A stretch of 64,000 nucleotides of DNA from an uncultured Clostridia bacterium (GTDB lineage Bacteria; Bacillota; Clostridia; UBA1381). The stretch covers positions 62,001-126,000 of the forward strand of contig CALXWJ010000097.1 of NCBI GenBank assembly GCA_944392335.1, given 5' to 3'. This document shows, piece by piece, positions 5,013-57,806 of this stretch (position 1 is the stretch's first letter; every line of letters starts with the position of its first letter). Under the pieces are notes generated by a model. The model was given only the letters and a program-made list of their open reading frames with translations, was not told the origin of the DNA and did no database searches. Both the position numbers and the translations under genes were made by a program.

Positions 5013-8000
5013 ATGATGAAAAAAAGAATTATTTCATTGGTTGCCGCGGCGGGTTTAGCCTTATCCAGTCTGACAATTACGGTATCAGCGGCAAAAAAAG
5101 AAAATATCCTTCCGGAAAACACGAAAATCCTGATGTGCACAGGCGCAAAAACGGCTTTTGCCGGCAGGACAGATGAAGAACTTGATTATCCGCCGTATAT
5201 GAGCGATAATGTTTTAATGCTTCCGGCAGAGTGGTTTTTGACAAATAACGGTTATGAAGCAAGCGAAGACAATACATCGGACAGTTTGACTTTTACCGGA
5301 GAACATAATATAACTATTACATACAATTCCGACAGTTTTACACTTGATAATACATACATAAAGCTTGAAAGAGCGGTCGAGAAAAAAAATGATGCGTTAT
5401 ATATTTCTCTTGATATATGCAGACATCTTGACATTGAATATAAGATGTATAGTAACGGTATTTTCTATATTACAGAAAACGGAAATTATGACAATATAAA
5501 TGAAAATCAGCTTATTAAGCTAATGGGTGTTTATGTATCTCCTAACGGAAGCGACAGTAATGATGGAACACCGCAAAAACCGTTTAAAACGCTTAATGCT
5601 GCCAAAAAACTTGCTGCCGATTATATGGAGCTATACGGTGACAAATATCTTGTGCACATATACATGATGGCAGGAAGATATTATATTGACAGTACTGTTG
5701 TATTTGAAGAAAACGCTTTTACATTGGATTCATACAAAGGTTTAAAGATACAGGATTATGGAGACGGTGAGGTTGAATTGACCGGGGCAATAGAGATTGA
5801 TGCCGAAAAGCTGAAGCCTGTTACCGATCCTATAACTCTTGCGCGTCTTCCAAAGGAAGGCAGGGGTAATGTTGCATATCTTGATTTGACCGAAATAGGA
5901 ATAACCCAGCTTGACAGCCCGACAAATATTTTCCATTATCTGTATTTAAATGATATCGAACAGACAAATGCAAGATGGCCCAATGAAGGATTTGCAACAA
6001 TATATTCGGTCCCGGAGTATAATTCCTTTACTTTCGGAGAGACAAACCCTACAAGATGGACAGCTGCTAAAAATGCATACATATGCGGACAGTTTTCAAA
6101 TTGGGGATGGGTATGGTACAGAGGTATTATAACAAGTGTAGATCCAAATACCAAAACAATAAAAATAACTACGCCAAATAATAATAACGGTATACAAGCA
6201 ACCGCACCGGGAACAAATTACTATGCAACAAACCTGTTGGAAGAAATTGATATGCCCGGAGAATGGTATGTTGACTGCGACAATCTGATGCTTTATTATT
6301 ATCCTCCGTATTCTTTAAAGGATTCAAAACTTGAAATGATGGTATTTACGGGGAATATGATACAGCTGAACAAATGCAAAAATATAACAATCGAAGGCCT
6401 TACCTTTACAAAAGGTGCAAGAGCGATTGATGCACAGGCTCCCAAAGAGGGAGATGTAAGAGGAATAACCATAAGAAGCTGCCGTTTTTCACATTTTCAG
6501 GACGAATATACCATAGGTCTTGCGGTAAATAACGGACAAAATCTGTATGATATTACAATAGAAGAAAATGAAGCTTATAATATGTTCGGAAGATTTGTTC
6601 AGTTCAGAGCCGGAAATATGGAAACGCTGACCGACGGAAATTGTGTGGTAAGAAATAATCATGTTATACTCCCGGCGCAGTTTTATGCATCTGGAGGAAT
6701 GGGCGCTCCATGGAATGGCGCCATGGGTGTTACCACAGAACACAATATTGTTCAGGACTGCCCGAGAGGCGCGGCCTTGGGCTGGCCAGGGACAAATTCA
6801 AAAATTAATTATAATGAAATTGTAAATTCCGGAAAATATATGAATGACTATGGTGCGATCTATATGGGAAGAACCGCTTCATATTTTGATATTGAAGTTG
6901 CATATAACTATATTCACGATAATGACAAAGACAGTAACTACTGCGGTTTATATAATGACGATGCGATATGTTATGTAAATTGGCATCATAACGTATGTGT
7001 TGACATAAATGTGCCTGCGATTTTTGCGGCAGGTATTGAGAGTAAATATATGTATAATCTCGCCGTCAACTGTAAAAGCGTGGTGCAGATGAGCCCAAGA
7101 TTAAATTACAATACCATAAGAAAAGGTGAAGAGCTTTGGACGGGATTAAATGATCTTGTAAACCGGACAGGAGATCTGTATTTAAAAGCTTATCCGAAAA
7201 TTCCGATGTATCTTGAAAGAGATCCGTTTGCCGAATGGTGGGACGTTATTGTTTTGGGTAATGTCGCGGTAGGCGGAAAAACCCTCAGTAATTATAACTT
7301 TGAGGATATAGATACCTATGGTGCAAAAACAATGGAAGTAGATGGTGAAACAATAGATATTTCAGCATTGAACGGTAAGCTTGAGGGAAATCCCGAGTAT
7401 CAGTACAGCGATGATCTTTTTGTTGATCCCGAAAACGGTGATTACAGTATAAATCCAGACAGTCAGATAGCAAAAGATGTACCGGAAATGCTTAATCTTG
7501 ATATTAATTCATCGGGTATAAATGTTGATAATCCAATACTTCTGCAAAAACCGGAAAAAGGATCAAGACTCAGATACCCAAGAAACGGTCAGCAAAATCT
7601 AAATGCTTCAGGAATAACATTTTCGTGGGATCCGGTAAAGGGAGCAAGCTTTTATAAAATTATTATTGCTACTGACTCGGAAATGAAAAATGTGGTTTAT
7701 GAAACACAGATAAGGGAAAATGCAAACTTTAATCAGATTACGGTTACCAATCTTGATAATGATCAGTTTTATTACTGGAAGGTCCAGGCAATCAGCGTTG
7801 TAAGACAAAATCAGTTTACAATAGATTCACAAGGCGGACCGTATTTGTTTAAGACTGCAAAAAGAGATGCCCTGGATAAAGAAAATCTTAAACTTGCATT
7901 GGAAACTCTTGAAAAATTCTGTAATGAGGATTTAAAAAATACAGAGTATCAATATGATGAAGAATTTATTAAATCTGCAGAAACCCTGCTTTCAGATGCA

Positions 8001-9449: not shown

Positions 9450-12400
9450 ATGAAAAAAATTCTTTCAGTTATACTGTTAACAGCAATTGCTGCTGAATGC
9501 ATTGCGGGTATACAAGTATATGCAGTGGAATCGAATATTGTTTATGTTTCTCAGAACGGAAGAGAAAATGCCAAAGGCTCGGCTGATGATCCGGTAAATT
9601 CAATAAAGCAAGCAAAAGATGCCGCTGTAAGATTAAAAAACAGCGGAGCACAGAGTGTTGAGATAAGAATAAAAGGCGGAAGTTATTATTTTGAAGATAC
9701 GTTGGTGTTAACACAAGAGGATTCGGGTATATCATATATTGGAGATGGGAGTGTATCCTTTACTCAGGCAACGAAGCTAAATACCGATAATTTTAAAAAA
9801 GTAACGGACCCCAATGTTTTGACAAGACTAAAGAGTAATGTCAGACCGTATATTTTACAATATGATTTAAAGTCAGACAATATTGATTTATCGGTAAATG
9901 ACAGTTTTTACCCCTATTTGTATATAAATGATGAAGCGCAGACAACGGCAAGATATCCAAACGGGTATTATCTTGTTGCGGAAAATGCAAATGATACCAA
10001 TACTTTTGATACGGGTATGTCCCGTACGATCAATTGGAAAAATAATCCGGACGCAATTATTTCGGGCAGCTTGTCGACCACATATTTTTGGAGAAATTAT
10101 AAAATTACGTCAATTGCGGGAAATAATGTGACATTAGAAGGTACAATAAGAAAAGACGCGCAGTATTATGCCGACAGAATATTGGAGGAACTTGACGTTC
10201 CCGGTGAATACTATGTTGACAGAGATAATGACATACTTTATTATTATCCGACGGGTACAATAAACGATGCACGAATAACAACGAACGGCTGTACTATGAT
10301 AAAATCGGAGAATGCAGACAATGTACTGATAAAAGGAATAACATTTGAAAAAAGCGGCGGTATGTCGGTAGAAGTAACCAACGGTACGAATTTTAATATT
10401 GAAGAGTGTGATTTTTATGATATTCAAGGGGAATATGTTTTAAAAATAACAGGTCAGGATTGTACTGTTTCAAAAAATTATGCGTATAACTGTGATAATG
10501 CTTTTATAAAATATGAGGGAGGAGATCTTGACACTTTATCTCCCGGAAATGTGATAATTGAAAATAACAGGATTTCAAACTGCGGAAATTTCGGAAGAGG
10601 AAGTATTATAAAATCGGGAAATTCTATTTTCGGAATGTTGACCTCATGCGGAAATATCGTACGAAACAATATTATTCAAGACTGTATGGTGTTTACTCCC
10701 ATTGTATTCGGTGGGAATAATTATACAATTTCCAAAAATGAGCTTTTTAATGTCGGAAGACTTATAAATGATGGCGGAGCAATATATTTCGGACGTTCAA
10801 ATGTACAATACGGCAATAAGGTTATCGGAAATTATATTCATGATCTGAATATGGATCTGAGTTACTGCGGAATTTATTCTGATGACGGATATTGCGGCGC
10901 ATATGTCAAGAACAATGTCATCGCGCGTGCGGATCAGGCGATGATCATAAATATCGGAATGAATGATCGATTCATCGACAATCTGTTTATAGATACCGAC
11001 AGCGGTATAACCGGAGGTTCCATGATGGGACGGGATACGGGTTCGTCGCTTTTTACCGAAACCTATACGACACTTTTTAATGCCTCATACAAAGATGCAT
11101 TCAGAAAAGCATATCCCGATATGGTTGCATCACTTTCACGATCGCCGTTTTTTGCATCATATGATACATATATAACGGGAAATGTAATGATAGGTCAGAA
11201 AGAAAACGACATAACATTGAAAACAAGACATTGGCATTTTTACAATGAAGATATTGATACTGATTATGATATCTTAAACGAAAAAGGAGCTATAACCGAG
11301 AATTATGGGAGTTATATCGGTTCTACATATTATGTCGGAACAAAAGTCGATGATCTTACCGGTTACGGGCCGTCCGTAAAGGATTCAAATGGCAGTGAAT
11401 TAAATGGCACTCCTGAAGGCAATCCGTATTATCAATATAACAGCGATCTGTTTTCGGATGATGGAAATCAAGATTACACTTTAACTCAAAGCATAGGACC
11501 TGAAGGTTCTGAAATAAATAATATTGATATGAGTGATGTTGGGATAGTGAGCGGAACACTGCCGGGTGAAAGCGGAAAGGAAGTCTTTGGTATCTATCCG
11601 AAGGACAACGCTCAAAATATAGATCCGCAGAATATACCATTTACATGGTCTACCGTTAAGAATGCATCGGTTTATGAAATCAAAGTATCGCAAAACAGCG
11701 ATATGTCAAATCCTGTAATTGATGAAGTATTTTATGAAACATATGCGGATAGTTATTTAATTAGGTCACTTGATTACGGTAAAAAATACTATTGGACAGT
11801 TACCGCGAAGGGGATAGGAAAACAAGACAGCTTTACAATTACAAGCAGTGTATCGAGTTTTGAAACATGCGCGTCCGATCATATTGATACTACATCACTT
11901 GCATATGCTGTTGAAGTGGTGGACAAGGAATATGAGGAAATTGAAAACGGCGAAATAAAATATGAACAAAATGCCCTTGACGCCATAAATGATGTATACG
12001 AAAGTGCAGTTACAGTCTTGTCAAACCCTCAGACGACAGAAGAAGTGGATCAGATTGAAAATGAGATATATGATATTTTGATATTGGCACAGGAATACAA
12101 AACAAATTTGTATAAGCCGGAAATTTCCGAGTGCAGGGTAAGCGATACAGATAAAGCAATAACTGTTTATGCAAAACATTTCCCCAAAAACAGTTTGGTG
12201 TCGATCTTAGTGACCAATCCGGAATATTCCCTTGACAATGCATATGCCGACAGTGATCTTATCTCGATACAGTATGCATCCATCGAAGAATGCGACAGCG
12301 AAGGAAATATCACTTTCACATTTGATACAATTGTCAGGGGAAGCGATATGCCGGGAGAATATAGGGTTTATATAAGCGATGAGAGCGGGGTTATTTACAG

Positions 12401-18132: not shown

Positions 18133-18282
18133 TTCAATAATGGATTGTCCCGTTATTCAACGAGGACAAGAGCGCGGCATAGCTGCGATGCCATCAGCGG
18201 AAGGTAGTACTCTCACACTGAACACAGATATGGAACCTGCCGCCTGCAGAGGCGGTGGACATCTTTGCTTAGGTTATAAAAT
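18133..18282 (+). repeat. Structured dispersed repeat, copy A
   Basis: This copy runs from TTCAATAATGGATTGTCCC to GGTTATAAA. The first hairpin pairs TTGTCC with GGACAA around an inner CGTT/AACG stem; a second pairs GGCAT with ATGCC; the last pairs CCGCCT with AGGCGG around GCAG. The central long hairpin is degraded in this copy (TCAG...CTGA remains). It is the most divergent of the four copies, and compared with B and C its stems are preserved with different bases. It ends 124 bases before the iorA start. Confidence 0.7.
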
Positions 18283-25528: not shown

Positions 25529-25537
25529 TATTAGTGT

Positions 25538-25645
25538 ATCTTCGGGGCAGAGTGAAATTCTCTACCGGCAGTAAAGTCTGCGAGCCTTTTTGGTTGATCC
25601 GGTGAAATTCCGGAACCGACGGTTAAAGTCCGGATGAAAGAAGAT
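25538..25645 (+). ncRNA. FMN riboswitch (RFN element)
   Basis: The 5' strand ATCTTC (25538-25543) pairs with GAAGAT (25640-25645) to close P1. Between them lie the RFN consensus blocks GGGGCAGAGTGAAATTC, CCGGCAGTAAAGTCTGCGAG, GATCCGGTGAAATTCCGG and CCGACGGTTAAAGTCCGG. It senses flavin mononucleotide and reduces expression of the riboflavin transporter downstream, here by transcription termination because a terminator follows at once. Confidence 0.97.
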
Positions 25646-25661
25646 GAGCAATGGCTGCATT

Positions 25662-31096: not shown

Positions 31097-31120
31097 AAAT
31101 TCACCCCGTTATTTGTATAT

Positions 31121-31290
31121 TCAATAAGAGCTTGTCCCGTCTTGGGCGAGGACAAGAGCAAAACAAGCGATTCGTGAATCGCCTCTACGTTGCTGCGCTG
31201 TAATCAGTAGTGGATTGTACTCTCACTGATTACAGATATGGGATCAGCCGCCGATTACGGCGGGGGACAACATGTGCGCAGTTATATAAA
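31121..31290 (+). repeat. Structured dispersed repeat, copy B
   Basis: TCAATAAGAGCTTGTCCC begins the copy, and GTTATATAAA ends it. Hairpins: CTTGTCC/GGACAAG with an inner CGTC/GGCG stem; GCGATTC/GAATCGC; a long TGTAATCAGT/ACTGATTACA-type stem spanning about 31200-31233 that ends with ATACTCTCAC-like bases; and CCGCCG/CGGCGG around ATTA. It lies between two minus-strand genes (AraC and ribokinase), so in its conserved orientation it has no downstream gene nearby. Confidence 0.8.
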
Positions 31291-32448: not shown

Positions 32449-35400
32449 ATGAAAAAAATAGCCGCATTTTTATTATCAGTTATGTGTATTTCAACAATTA
32501 TACCGGCAAATGCCATATCGGCACAAGATACTGAAGATTATGCCGAAGAGGAAATTATTCTCTATGTTTCACCGGACGGAGAAGATACAGCTGCCGGAAC
32601 AGAGCAATACCCCTTGAAGAGCTTTGAGGGTGCAAGAGACAGAGTCAGAAGCTTGCTGAAAAAGCAGACGGGAATTCCCATTACGGTCATTTTCAAGGAA
32701 GGGGAATACCGGTTTTCAAGAAGTGTTGAATTAAATGCATTTGACAGCGGTGTTGAAGGAGCGGAAATTACATATAAGGCTGAAGAGGGAGCAGATGTGA
32801 AATTTAAAGGCTCTGTCCTTTTGGATGTGTCTGAATTTGAATATATAAATGACGAGTCGATACTTGCACGTATCCCGGATGTTGCAAGGGATTATGTCGG
32901 CGCGCTTGATCTTAGTAAATTTAATATTTCAAATGTTCCGGTATTCGGAGGCGGAGGCGGAGGAAACAGGCCTACGAAGTATTATGATATTTATCTTGAT
33001 GACGAGCTGCAAACATTGTCCAGATATCCGAATACAGGATATATACAGATAAATGAGATCGTCGATCAAAATAATTGTATATTCAGACCTGCCGGAAGCA
33101 GGGTTTCCAGATGGGGTGCTGCAAAAGATGTGCAGATGTCGGGATATATCAGCAATACTTATGCGTATGACAGGACATATATAACAAATATCGACACACA
33201 AAACAGAACCTTGCAGTTTTTTAAAGGATATACCACAGGCGGACTTACCAATGTAACAAACAGATTTTTTGTATCCAATCTTTTGGAAGAAATAGACGTT
33301 CCCGGTGAGTGGTTCATAGATAAAGATACGATGATTCTTTATTATTATCCGCCCCATCCGTTATCTGACGAAACACTGGAGATGTCGGTGCTCCGCGAAG
33401 ATATGATAACCATTAAAGATGCTTCATATATTACCTTTGACGGGATAGAATTTTCACAAACATGTCGTGATGTTATAGGAATGGTACGCTCAAGCCATAT
33501 AACGGTAAGAAACTGCTTATTCAGAAATATCGGAAGAAGCGCGATAACAAATGATACTGTAATGACAGATATGATACTGAGCGACGGCTGCGATAATGTT
33601 TTGATTGAGAATAATACGTTTTATGAAATAGGCGGAGAATGTGCAAGATTGGGCGGCGGTGATTTCAGAACATTGGAACCGTCAAACAACAGAATAACAA
33701 ACAACCATGCTTATCACTATCAAACATATTCAAGATACGGTTATGCATTTGCCGTATCGGGTGTGGGGTCGATGGTCGATCATAATACCATTCATGACGC
33801 GCCGCACGGAGGCGTAAATTTCAGCGGAAACGATCATAAAATACTCTATAATGAAATGTATGATCTGTGTAAAGAATCAAATGACTGCGGCGCGATATAT
33901 TCAGGCCGTAATGTATTTATGCGCGGTGTTGAAATAGCATATAATTATATTCATGATATAAATATTCTTGATACATCTGTCGGCACCATTCAATGTGCTG
34001 TATATTATGATGACAGACTCTCGGAAGGATATGTCCATCATAATATTATCAAAAACTGCGGAAGAGGTATATTCTTACACGGCGGATGTGATATGACTAT
34101 TGAGAACAATATTTTAATCGATATGGATTCGGGAATTTCTTTTTCACATTGCGGAACGGGATTTGAAAATCTTTATTATGAGGCATTTAATGTACTCAAT
34201 CAATATCCGGTATATTCAAAATATCGAGGAATGTCGGAAGAAGAGCTATTTGCAAGAGAAGATGATTTTTATCCCAAGGGTAATTATTGTACCGATAATT
34301 TATTTGTAAATCCTTCCGGAGCCGGCGTTCAGACTACGGAGAATGTTCACATTGGCGACGGAATAGATGAAAATAAGATATTTGACAATGTTGTTGAAAC
34401 ATCATTTGATGATTTTGTTGATCCCGAAAATCAGGATTACACAATAAAGGATGGAGCAGATATTTTAAATACCATTCCGGGATTGAACGAAATAAAAATG
34501 TCTGAGATCGGGATATATGATAAAGACAGTATCGAATTGGATCCGGAGCAGACCTTTTTAAAGACCGCTCCTAAAAACAATGAGAAGAATGTAGAATCTT
34601 CTTCAGCAATTTTTGCATGGGAAAATGTGGAAAAGGCAGACAGATACAGATTGGTTATTGCAACCGATCCGCAGCTTGAAAATGTTGTTTATGATGAAGA
34701 GGTATTTTATAATACTATTACACTCGACAGTCTTGATTCCGGAAATGTACAGTATTATTGGGATGTTGTCGCTTACAGCAATTCAAAGGACGGAGGAACT
34801 GAAATAATAGAAAGTACCGGTGCGCCGTATCTTTTGACAACGTCTAAATATGATAATCTTGATAAGCTTATATTAACCGAAACGATACAAAATGCCGAGA
34901 GTCTGTATTCAGAGCTTGAAGTGGGTACCGCGGCGGGTCAAAGCAGTGAAGAGGATGTTCAAGCATTCAGGGATGCGATTGATAGTGCTATAGAGGTCAA
35001 CAATCTAAAGGTAGGTATCCAGGCAGATGTTGATAAGGCAGCAAATGATCTGGACAACGCTATAAGAACGGTATCATCAAAAAGAAATCTCGGATATTTC
35101 GGTATAGATGGAATGCTGGCAGATATAGATAACTGGACATTGCAGGGTAATCAGGACAGCTATATAAGCGATAATGTCATGTACCTAAAAGAGCATGCTT
35201 CTTATGATGAAAAAATTGATACATATAAGGTCTTAAAATTTAAAATGAAAGTATCATACAATACAAGCGGATGGACTGCTTTCGGAATAAAACAGGCAGC
35301 TCCCGGAATTGTATGGTCGGGAGGAACGGGATATTTTTGGGCTTTTAAGGCTGATCAATTTGAATATCAAAGATTTGTTGAAGGTGCAGGAGGATTTTTA

Positions 35401-44370: not shown

Positions 44371-44395
44371 ATAACACACTTGTGTAAAAATCTGT

Positions 44396-44560
44396 TCAAT
44401 AAGGGCTTGTCCCGTCTTGGGCGAGGACAAGAGCAAAACAGGCGATTCGTGAATCGCCCCTACGTTGCTGCGCTGTAATCAGTGGGAGATAATACTCTCA
44501 CTGATTACAAATATAGAACCCGCCGTCAAGCGGCAGGGGACATTTGTGCGCGGTTATAAA
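44396..44560 (+). repeat. Structured dispersed repeat, copy C
   Basis: The best-preserved copy runs from TCAATAAGGGCTTGTCCC to GGTTATAAA. Hairpins in order: CTTGTCC/GGACAAG with an inner CGTC/GGCG stem; GGCGATT/AATCGCC with a CGTG loop; TGTAATCAGTG/CACTGATTACA (11 bp) with an inner GAG/CTC pair; GCCG/CGGC around TCAAG; then GGGGACA and a terminal GTTATA. It ends 20 bases before the ATG at 44580, so here it makes up the leader. Confidence 0.85.
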
Positions 44561-57377: not shown

Positions 57378-57718
57378 GTCATCAGGCAGCTGTTTGTTCA
57401 TTTGTTGCTTTTTGATTAGAAAACATATGTAAAATACGATTTCTAAATCTATTAAAGCTCTTATAACCGCATACATTTCTCTTAAGTACCTTAATTTTAT
57501 TGTTACAATCTTAAGTAAAACTATTTGTAATTGTAGCGGCAAATGAATTTTTAATACCGATATACCAATGCCGCATCGTATCTGCATATTTTTCAAATTG
57601 TGGTATACCGCATTTTTCAGTATATTTTATCCATTTAAGCATTGCTTCTTGAGCAGAAGTTGTATCTTTATTAGAAAGGATTTTTAGACATTGCTCTTTG
57701 TACCAATAGGCTCTGCTT
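57378..57718 (-). pseudogene. ISL3 transposase, C-terminal fragment with internal stop
   Basis: Minus-strand translation from 57718 gives MLKWIKYTEKCGIPQFEKYA, then HWYIGIKNSFAATITNSFT, a TAA stop at about 57510-57508, then CNNKIKVLKRNVCGYKSFNR and RILHMF. This is the typical C-terminus of ISL3 transposases. The 5' part is cut off exactly where repeat copy D begins (57719), so the gene is dead. Confidence 0.8.
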
Positions 57719-57806
57719 AAATAAGGGCTTGTCCCGTCTTGGGAGAGGACAAGAGCACTGCACAGCAGTGCTGTAATCAGTGGGAGATTGTACTCTCACT
57801 GATTAT
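57719..57806 (+). repeat. Structured dispersed repeat, copy D (short)
   Basis: It begins ATAAGGGCTTGTCCCGTCTT and has CTTGTCC/GGACAAG, a short variable hairpin CACTGC/GCAGTG (ACA loop) in place of the GGCGATT/AATCGCC hairpin of copy C, and the long TAATCAGTG/CACTGATTA hairpin, and then ends at a run of six T. It lacks the GC-rich last hairpin. It sits inside the ISL3 remnant, between the two transposase fragments. An 11-bp direct repeat (GAGGACAAGAG) occurs at 57745-57755 in the copy and at 57818-57828 in the transposase zinc-finger codons. Confidence 0.8.

Follow-up and report, generated by a model that had tools for sequence, protein, structure and literature searches.

The window, by which we mean the complete stretch of 64,000 nucleotides analyzed here (genome G000; other G numbers denote relatives), contains four copies of one repeat, all of them on the plus strand (Table 1). 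These four dispersed copies had already been recognized in a first-pass annotation; their limits, including the flanking TTATA, were corrected to 18133-18278, 31120-31286, 44395-44558 and approximately 57717-57806. The boundaries of copy 3 were set by analogy with an exact empty site in the relative G009, which is Clostridia bacterium RGIG9115 (matched via an identical locus). Copy 4 is devoid of its 3′ third. The core pattern of the first hairpin occurred three times in the window versus zero times in 100 shuffles. A covariance model of the 3′ half recovered copies 1 to 3 with E-values of approximately 1e-16 to 1e-17 and the truncated copy with 3e-6, and the same model, applied to the whole window, gave no credible site beyond these four. 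The window also harbors an FMN riboswitch (RFN element) at positions 25534-25649, which with 116.6 bits was its sole Rfam match above threshold. Furthermore, segments at 6237-6326, 10182-10271 and 33283-33372, located inside large open frames, are 67-73% alike, which suggests that the window encodes related large proteins.

Table 1. Positions of the repeat copies in the window, of their flanking targets and of the structural parts of copy 3.
Feature	Position	Strand	Remarks
Copy 1	18133..18273	+	Element without REP module; covariance model and alignment
TTATA flanking copy 1	18274..18278	+	
Copy 2	31120..31281	+	Carries REP module at 31166-31188 (minus strand); alignment and covariance model
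TTATA flanking copy 2	31282..31286	+	
Copy 3	44395..44553	+	159 bp with REP module, directly 5′ of TTATA; alignment of 31 copies
First hairpin of copy 3, CTTGTCC...GGACAAG	44406..44431		Near 5′ end
Nested REP module of copy 3, GTAGGGGCGATTCACGAATCGCC	44441..44463	-	GTAG plus palindrome
Central hairpin of copy 3, GTAATCAGTG...CACTGATTAC	44475..44508		
Third hairpin of copy 3, CCGCCG..GCGGC.GGG	44516..44539		Near 3′ end; left-end hairpin on the minus strand
Flanking target TTATA of copy 3	44554..44558	+	TATAA on the minus strand
Copy 4	57717..57806	+	No REP module; stops after the central hairpin

From 5′ to 3′, the element is composed of TTCAATAA, a first hairpin, a spacer, a central hairpin, a third hairpin and a tail, followed by TTATA. 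It is approximately 113-175 bp long and contains no gene. In this genome the central stem is GTAATCAGTG/CACTGATTAC and the third stem CCGCCG/CGGCGG, while the blocks CGTCATTC, ATGGAA and GACATC are conserved and unpaired. End hairpins were present in all main classes, the first one approximately 8-11 nt from the 5′ end and the third one near the 3′ end. When the minus strand is read, ATAA precedes the element, and one hairpin is found near either end; if this strand is the moving one, the first hairpin is the right-end hairpin. In most classes the two end hairpins are preceded on the minus strand by ATGAC and ATGTC, a putative guide/cleavage-site pairing read from the sequence only, which is degenerate in G000 and, in type B, was not found next to the first hairpin.

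Two of the window copies possess an additional hairpin, GGCGATTC/GAATCGCC, whose other strand reads GTAGGGGCGATTCACGAATCGCC, a GTAG-type REP. Free copies of the same REP exist around the RAYT-like gene L032 of this genome (G000:C49:36349-36660). In relatives the corresponding place is either empty or occupied by other REPIN-like hairpins. The first-pass annotation had regarded the variants of the second hairpin as one covarying stem. Stems of the element do covary between species, but the middle hairpin is a separate GTAG-REP module without homology to the stems that occupy this position in the other two copies. The site between the first and the central hairpin is tolerant, and REP-type palindromes have been added there. 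In SIG622 (L082, L121) a REPIN-like hairpin pair was placed in the same middle region as the REP of this genome.

Further copies, as the first-pass annotation had envisaged, were found both in this genome and in its relatives. BLAST of the genome gave at least 43 matches to the repeat. Sequence fetched around known copies, approximately 770 kb in total, contained at least 107 distinct copies, full or partial. When the window copies are aligned with others from the genome, the unit extends from TTCAATAAGG to ...GTTATA and measures 146-172 nt with the flanking TTATA. With the covariance model built on the 3′ half, related elements, which frequently lack the middle hairpin, were detected in 25 out of 70 genomes belonging to this family, the copies per genome amounting to at least 63 each in G000 and G009, 62 in G022 and 22 in G079. 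An exact pattern scan disclosed the element in Acetivibrio sp. MSJd-27 and in several Clostridia metagenome genomes, and the phages, plasmids and viral contigs that were searched did not match it.

The relative G009 allowed us to follow the insertion at nucleotide level. Several 117-nt units of this genome (element plus TTAT) were 100% identical at unrelated places, indicating recent movement. One of these units (copy L152:18119-18231) resides in a longer repeat, of which two paralogous sites in the same genome are free of the element. The occupied site reads ...GACGGCGTATGT[TTCAATAAGG...CTTTTAG]TTATACTCC..., compared to ...GACGGCGTATGTTTATACTCC... at the empty site. The empty sites read ...GTATGT/TTATACTCC... 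with the insertion at the slash, the flanks being otherwise nearly identical. At L152, 113 bp had been gained directly 5′ of a TTAT that pre-exists in the empty sites, with no base duplicated or lost, a boundary that may be shifted by two bases (TT). These exact empty sites belong to one related genus, not to the genome of the window. Three nested copies exhibited the same boundary, between TAG or TAGG and TTAT, which is the right junction of the older copy. On contig C33 of G009 an open reading frame was restored across the junction once the copy was removed. By eye the interrupted gene had been taken for an S26 signal peptidase, but the rejoined frame gave no Pfam match at 1e-5 and counts only as a restored frame. 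For the window itself, the place of copy 1 is without the element at the orthologous site of three congeners (G001, G002 and G003), and for copy 2 the left flank is matched by G002 sequence lacking the element, the intergenic regions of the congeners being too diverged to give the exact insertion base at either copy. The right side of the place orthologous to copy 2 is taken up in G002 (L138; G002:C326) by another segment, several hundred bases long, that includes gene-like sequence.

TTAT was present at the expected end of 73 out of 87 right-ended copies in this genome and of 49 out of 50 in G009. The right flank can be written as TTAT(A/T), while the left flank has no motif, its base being unconstrained in 46 and 91 copies. 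A number of copies directly border a stop codon, and the ATAA is then the stop of the gene itself (10/50 in G009, 4/87 in G000). We also determined the orientation of the copies relative to the GC skew within 8 kb, which is only a proxy for the direction of replication. The plus strand was C-rich for 40 of 52 copies in G009 (40:12) and for 81 of 107 in G000 (81:26), whereas intergenic TTATW sites, used as null, gave 55% and 54% (p=0.0019 for G009, 9e-6 for G000). Stratification by the orientation of the flanking genes yielded a combined z of 4.7 (p=2.4e-6), a value to be read with related copies not being fully independent. All four copies of the window have the minority orientation, their own plus strand being G-rich (skew 0.13-0.19). 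Owing to this bias, the minus strand tends to coincide with the G-rich strand, which is presumed to be the lagging-strand template.

The stems had been described in the first-pass annotation as changing in sequence yet staying paired, and this holds between species, where three stems covary: 10 of 21 pairs change on both sides, none of 500 shuffles reached the score, and slid controls failed. Together with the conserved unpaired blocks, this covariation would speak for a functional RNA (riboswitch-like, sRNA or 3′UTR element) conserved for its fold. Within species, though, the stem mismatches comprised 74 G.T and 80 A.C. Since a fold retained as RNA, or on one strand once inserted, should favor G.T on the strand concerned, neither strand is preserved as a fold. 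Identical dispersed copies and exact empty sites signify insertion and not descent, copies are found in every gene context and orientation, and the fixed TTAT, the lack of a duplication and the strand bias also speak against the folded-RNA reading that had been offered initially. At gathering as well as permissive thresholds no Rfam family matched the element, in agreement with the initial statement that no named RNA class was recognized. A functional RNA is therefore highly improbable; the repeat is mobile DNA. According to the simplest reading, source copies that are active retain the hairpins needed for transposition, whereas copies drift once inserted. Covarying stems in a dispersed repeat hence need not imply a functional RNA.

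We regard the element as a non-autonomous, gene-less DNA repeat, which is mobile as a single strand and depends on a HUH enzyme acting in trans (probability about 0.7). Each end has a hairpin nearby, the flanking tetranucleotide is fixed and the orientation is biased, a footprint which suggests that the element is probably moved by single-strand transposition of the IS200/IS605 or REP/RAYT type. IS200/IS605 elements are inserted on the 3′ side of a tetra- or pentanucleotide, create no duplication and favor the lagging-strand template (PMC6006769, PMC7290912). In the mechanism we propose, a HUH tyrosine transposase provided in trans would recognize the end hairpins on the minus strand while this is single-stranded, mainly on the lagging-strand template. 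Minus-strand cuts would be made after ATAA and at the TTATTGAA end, and the element, cut out as single-stranded DNA, would be joined 3′ of ATAA in single-stranded DNA. It would thus be inserted directly 5′ of TTAT without target duplication, as read at the exact site of one relative, and the inserted copies would then decay neutrally.

Attempts were also made to identify the enzyme. Y1 genes of this genome are two RAYT-like ones (L031, L032), one apparently degenerate; G009 possesses one of the IS200 type, one of the RAYT type (L162) and one fragment, and G002 a RAYT-like gene (L161). At 48 Y1-related loci element ends did not occur above chance, and the Y1 loci of G000, G009, G002, Acetivibrio MSJd-27, SIG622 and others revealed no convincing element end. 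The IS200 copies of MSJd-27 have ends that differ from those of the element. A weak model match (19 bits) beside the IS200 gene L259 was judged to be chance, as its hairpin lies beyond the ends of the IS200 and is simply a terminator-like palindrome. Within the 70 genomes, Y1 was present in 9 of 25 carriers versus 25 of 45 non-carriers (Fisher p=0.14) and does not track the element. G079, 98% complete and with 22 copies, gave no PF01797 match, and the high-copy genome G022 likewise gave no Y1 match. A longer element with the same ends was not found in G009, where most of 44 first-hairpin ends were inspected. The segment C17:5655-5770 of G009, at first a candidate for the unpaired 5′ end of an autonomous partner, turned out to be an ordinary copy of chimeric make-up: its 5′ end belongs to one subfamily and its 3′ end to a second one, which suggests recombination between subfamilies. 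The genes L031 (G000:C66) and L161 (G002:C352) have the same neighbor genes in two species. Their RAYT-like protein has apparently lost one histidine of the HUH motif and is possibly domesticated. Moreover, an identical IS200 TnpA together with an identical neighboring protein was encountered in two genera (L159, G005:C13; L160, G009:C63), reflecting either recent transfer or a binning error. Out of the claim that the repeat is an IS200/IS605-derived palindromic element, the single-strand DNA element is thus retained by its footprint, but not the derivation, because a TnpA gene with these ends was not found.

A REP/REPIN-type element moved by a host RAYT (TnpA-REP) would be in line with the RAYT-like genes of G000, G002 and G009, with the high copy number and dispersal in trans of REPs, and with the nested module, which is a true GTAG REP also lying around L032. 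We consider this unlikely, since the element's own ends lack GTAG at the hairpin foot, no copy of these ends was located at RAYT loci, L031, judging by its sequence, apparently misses one HUH histidine, and both G022 and G079 carry many copies without a Y1 match. Genomes with high copy numbers and without any Y1 or Y2 gene would fit a mobilizer that is neither IS200/IS605 TnpA nor RAYT, i.e., an unrecognized enzyme or a host replication or repair activity serving a family across Clostridia, and this we hold to be rather doubtful. The insertion at a specific tetranucleotide without duplication, the hairpins near the ends and the common 3′ halves with differing 5′ halves could also belong to a rolling-circle (IS91/Helitron-like, Y2) derivative. 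The search for Y2_Tnp (PF04986) in 15 genomes, however, gave one truncated hit (G002) and none in the high-copy genomes, which makes such an origin very unlikely. An integron attC-like site or tyrosine-recombinase target would likewise act as a folded single strand, and tandem cases are inserted between G and TT. But at the empty site (T/TTAT) the insertion is preceded by T instead of G, this base is unconstrained in the 46 and 91 copies, and neither cassette arrays nor open reading frames were seen between units, so that we give hardly any credence to this reading. For the preferred element mobilized in trans, a lost TnpA, a RAYT or something else are candidate mobilizers.

Functionally, the element resembles single-strand DNA elements of the PATE or REP kind and appears to represent a new family of a known kind, the gene-less mobile palindromic repeats of bacteria. 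As the search for a linked transposase found none, we do not claim that it belongs to any named family of IS200/IS605 elements or REPs. With PATEs, which belong to IS200/IS605, it has in common the absence of a gene, subterminal hairpins without terminal inverted repeat, insertion without target duplication, a fixed flanking short target and a lagging-template-like bias (PMC7290912, PMC6006769). It differs from them by its central hairpin, the nested REP and the high copy number, and an autonomous IS200/IS605 element sharing its ends was not encountered. GTAG REPs and REPINs with their RAYT are also extragenic palindromes, dispersed in high copy and likely moved in trans, and the middle module is one of them. 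The element, in contrast, comprises 113-175 bp with three hairpins, has the target TTAT, and its own hairpins do not bear the GTAG tag; GTAG or GTGG at the hairpin foot and a RAYT gene flanked by copies were observed solely for the middle module and not for the ends of the element itself.

CGTC-tagged REPs are palindromic repeats for which no dedicated transposase was found either, and the CGTCATTC block beside the first hairpin recalls their tag, as a resemblance only (PMC3733652). They are single hairpins of 20-40 bp, mostly alpha-proteobacterial, and none is listed from Clostridia (PMC3733652). The BOX element of Streptococcus is similarly modular and intergenic, with constant ends around a middle module that is optional; it spreads as a parasite, and no transposase is known for it (PMC3049150). 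Its middle, however, consists of tandem boxB units instead of a foreign REP, and by eye there is no sequence relation. The repeat thus constitutes an apparently unlisted high-copy family of gut Clostridia, whose exact ends, target and strand bias could be read from sequence. Beside CGTC REPs and BOX, it is another repeat without its mobilizing enzyme, and its recent copies make this enzyme findable.
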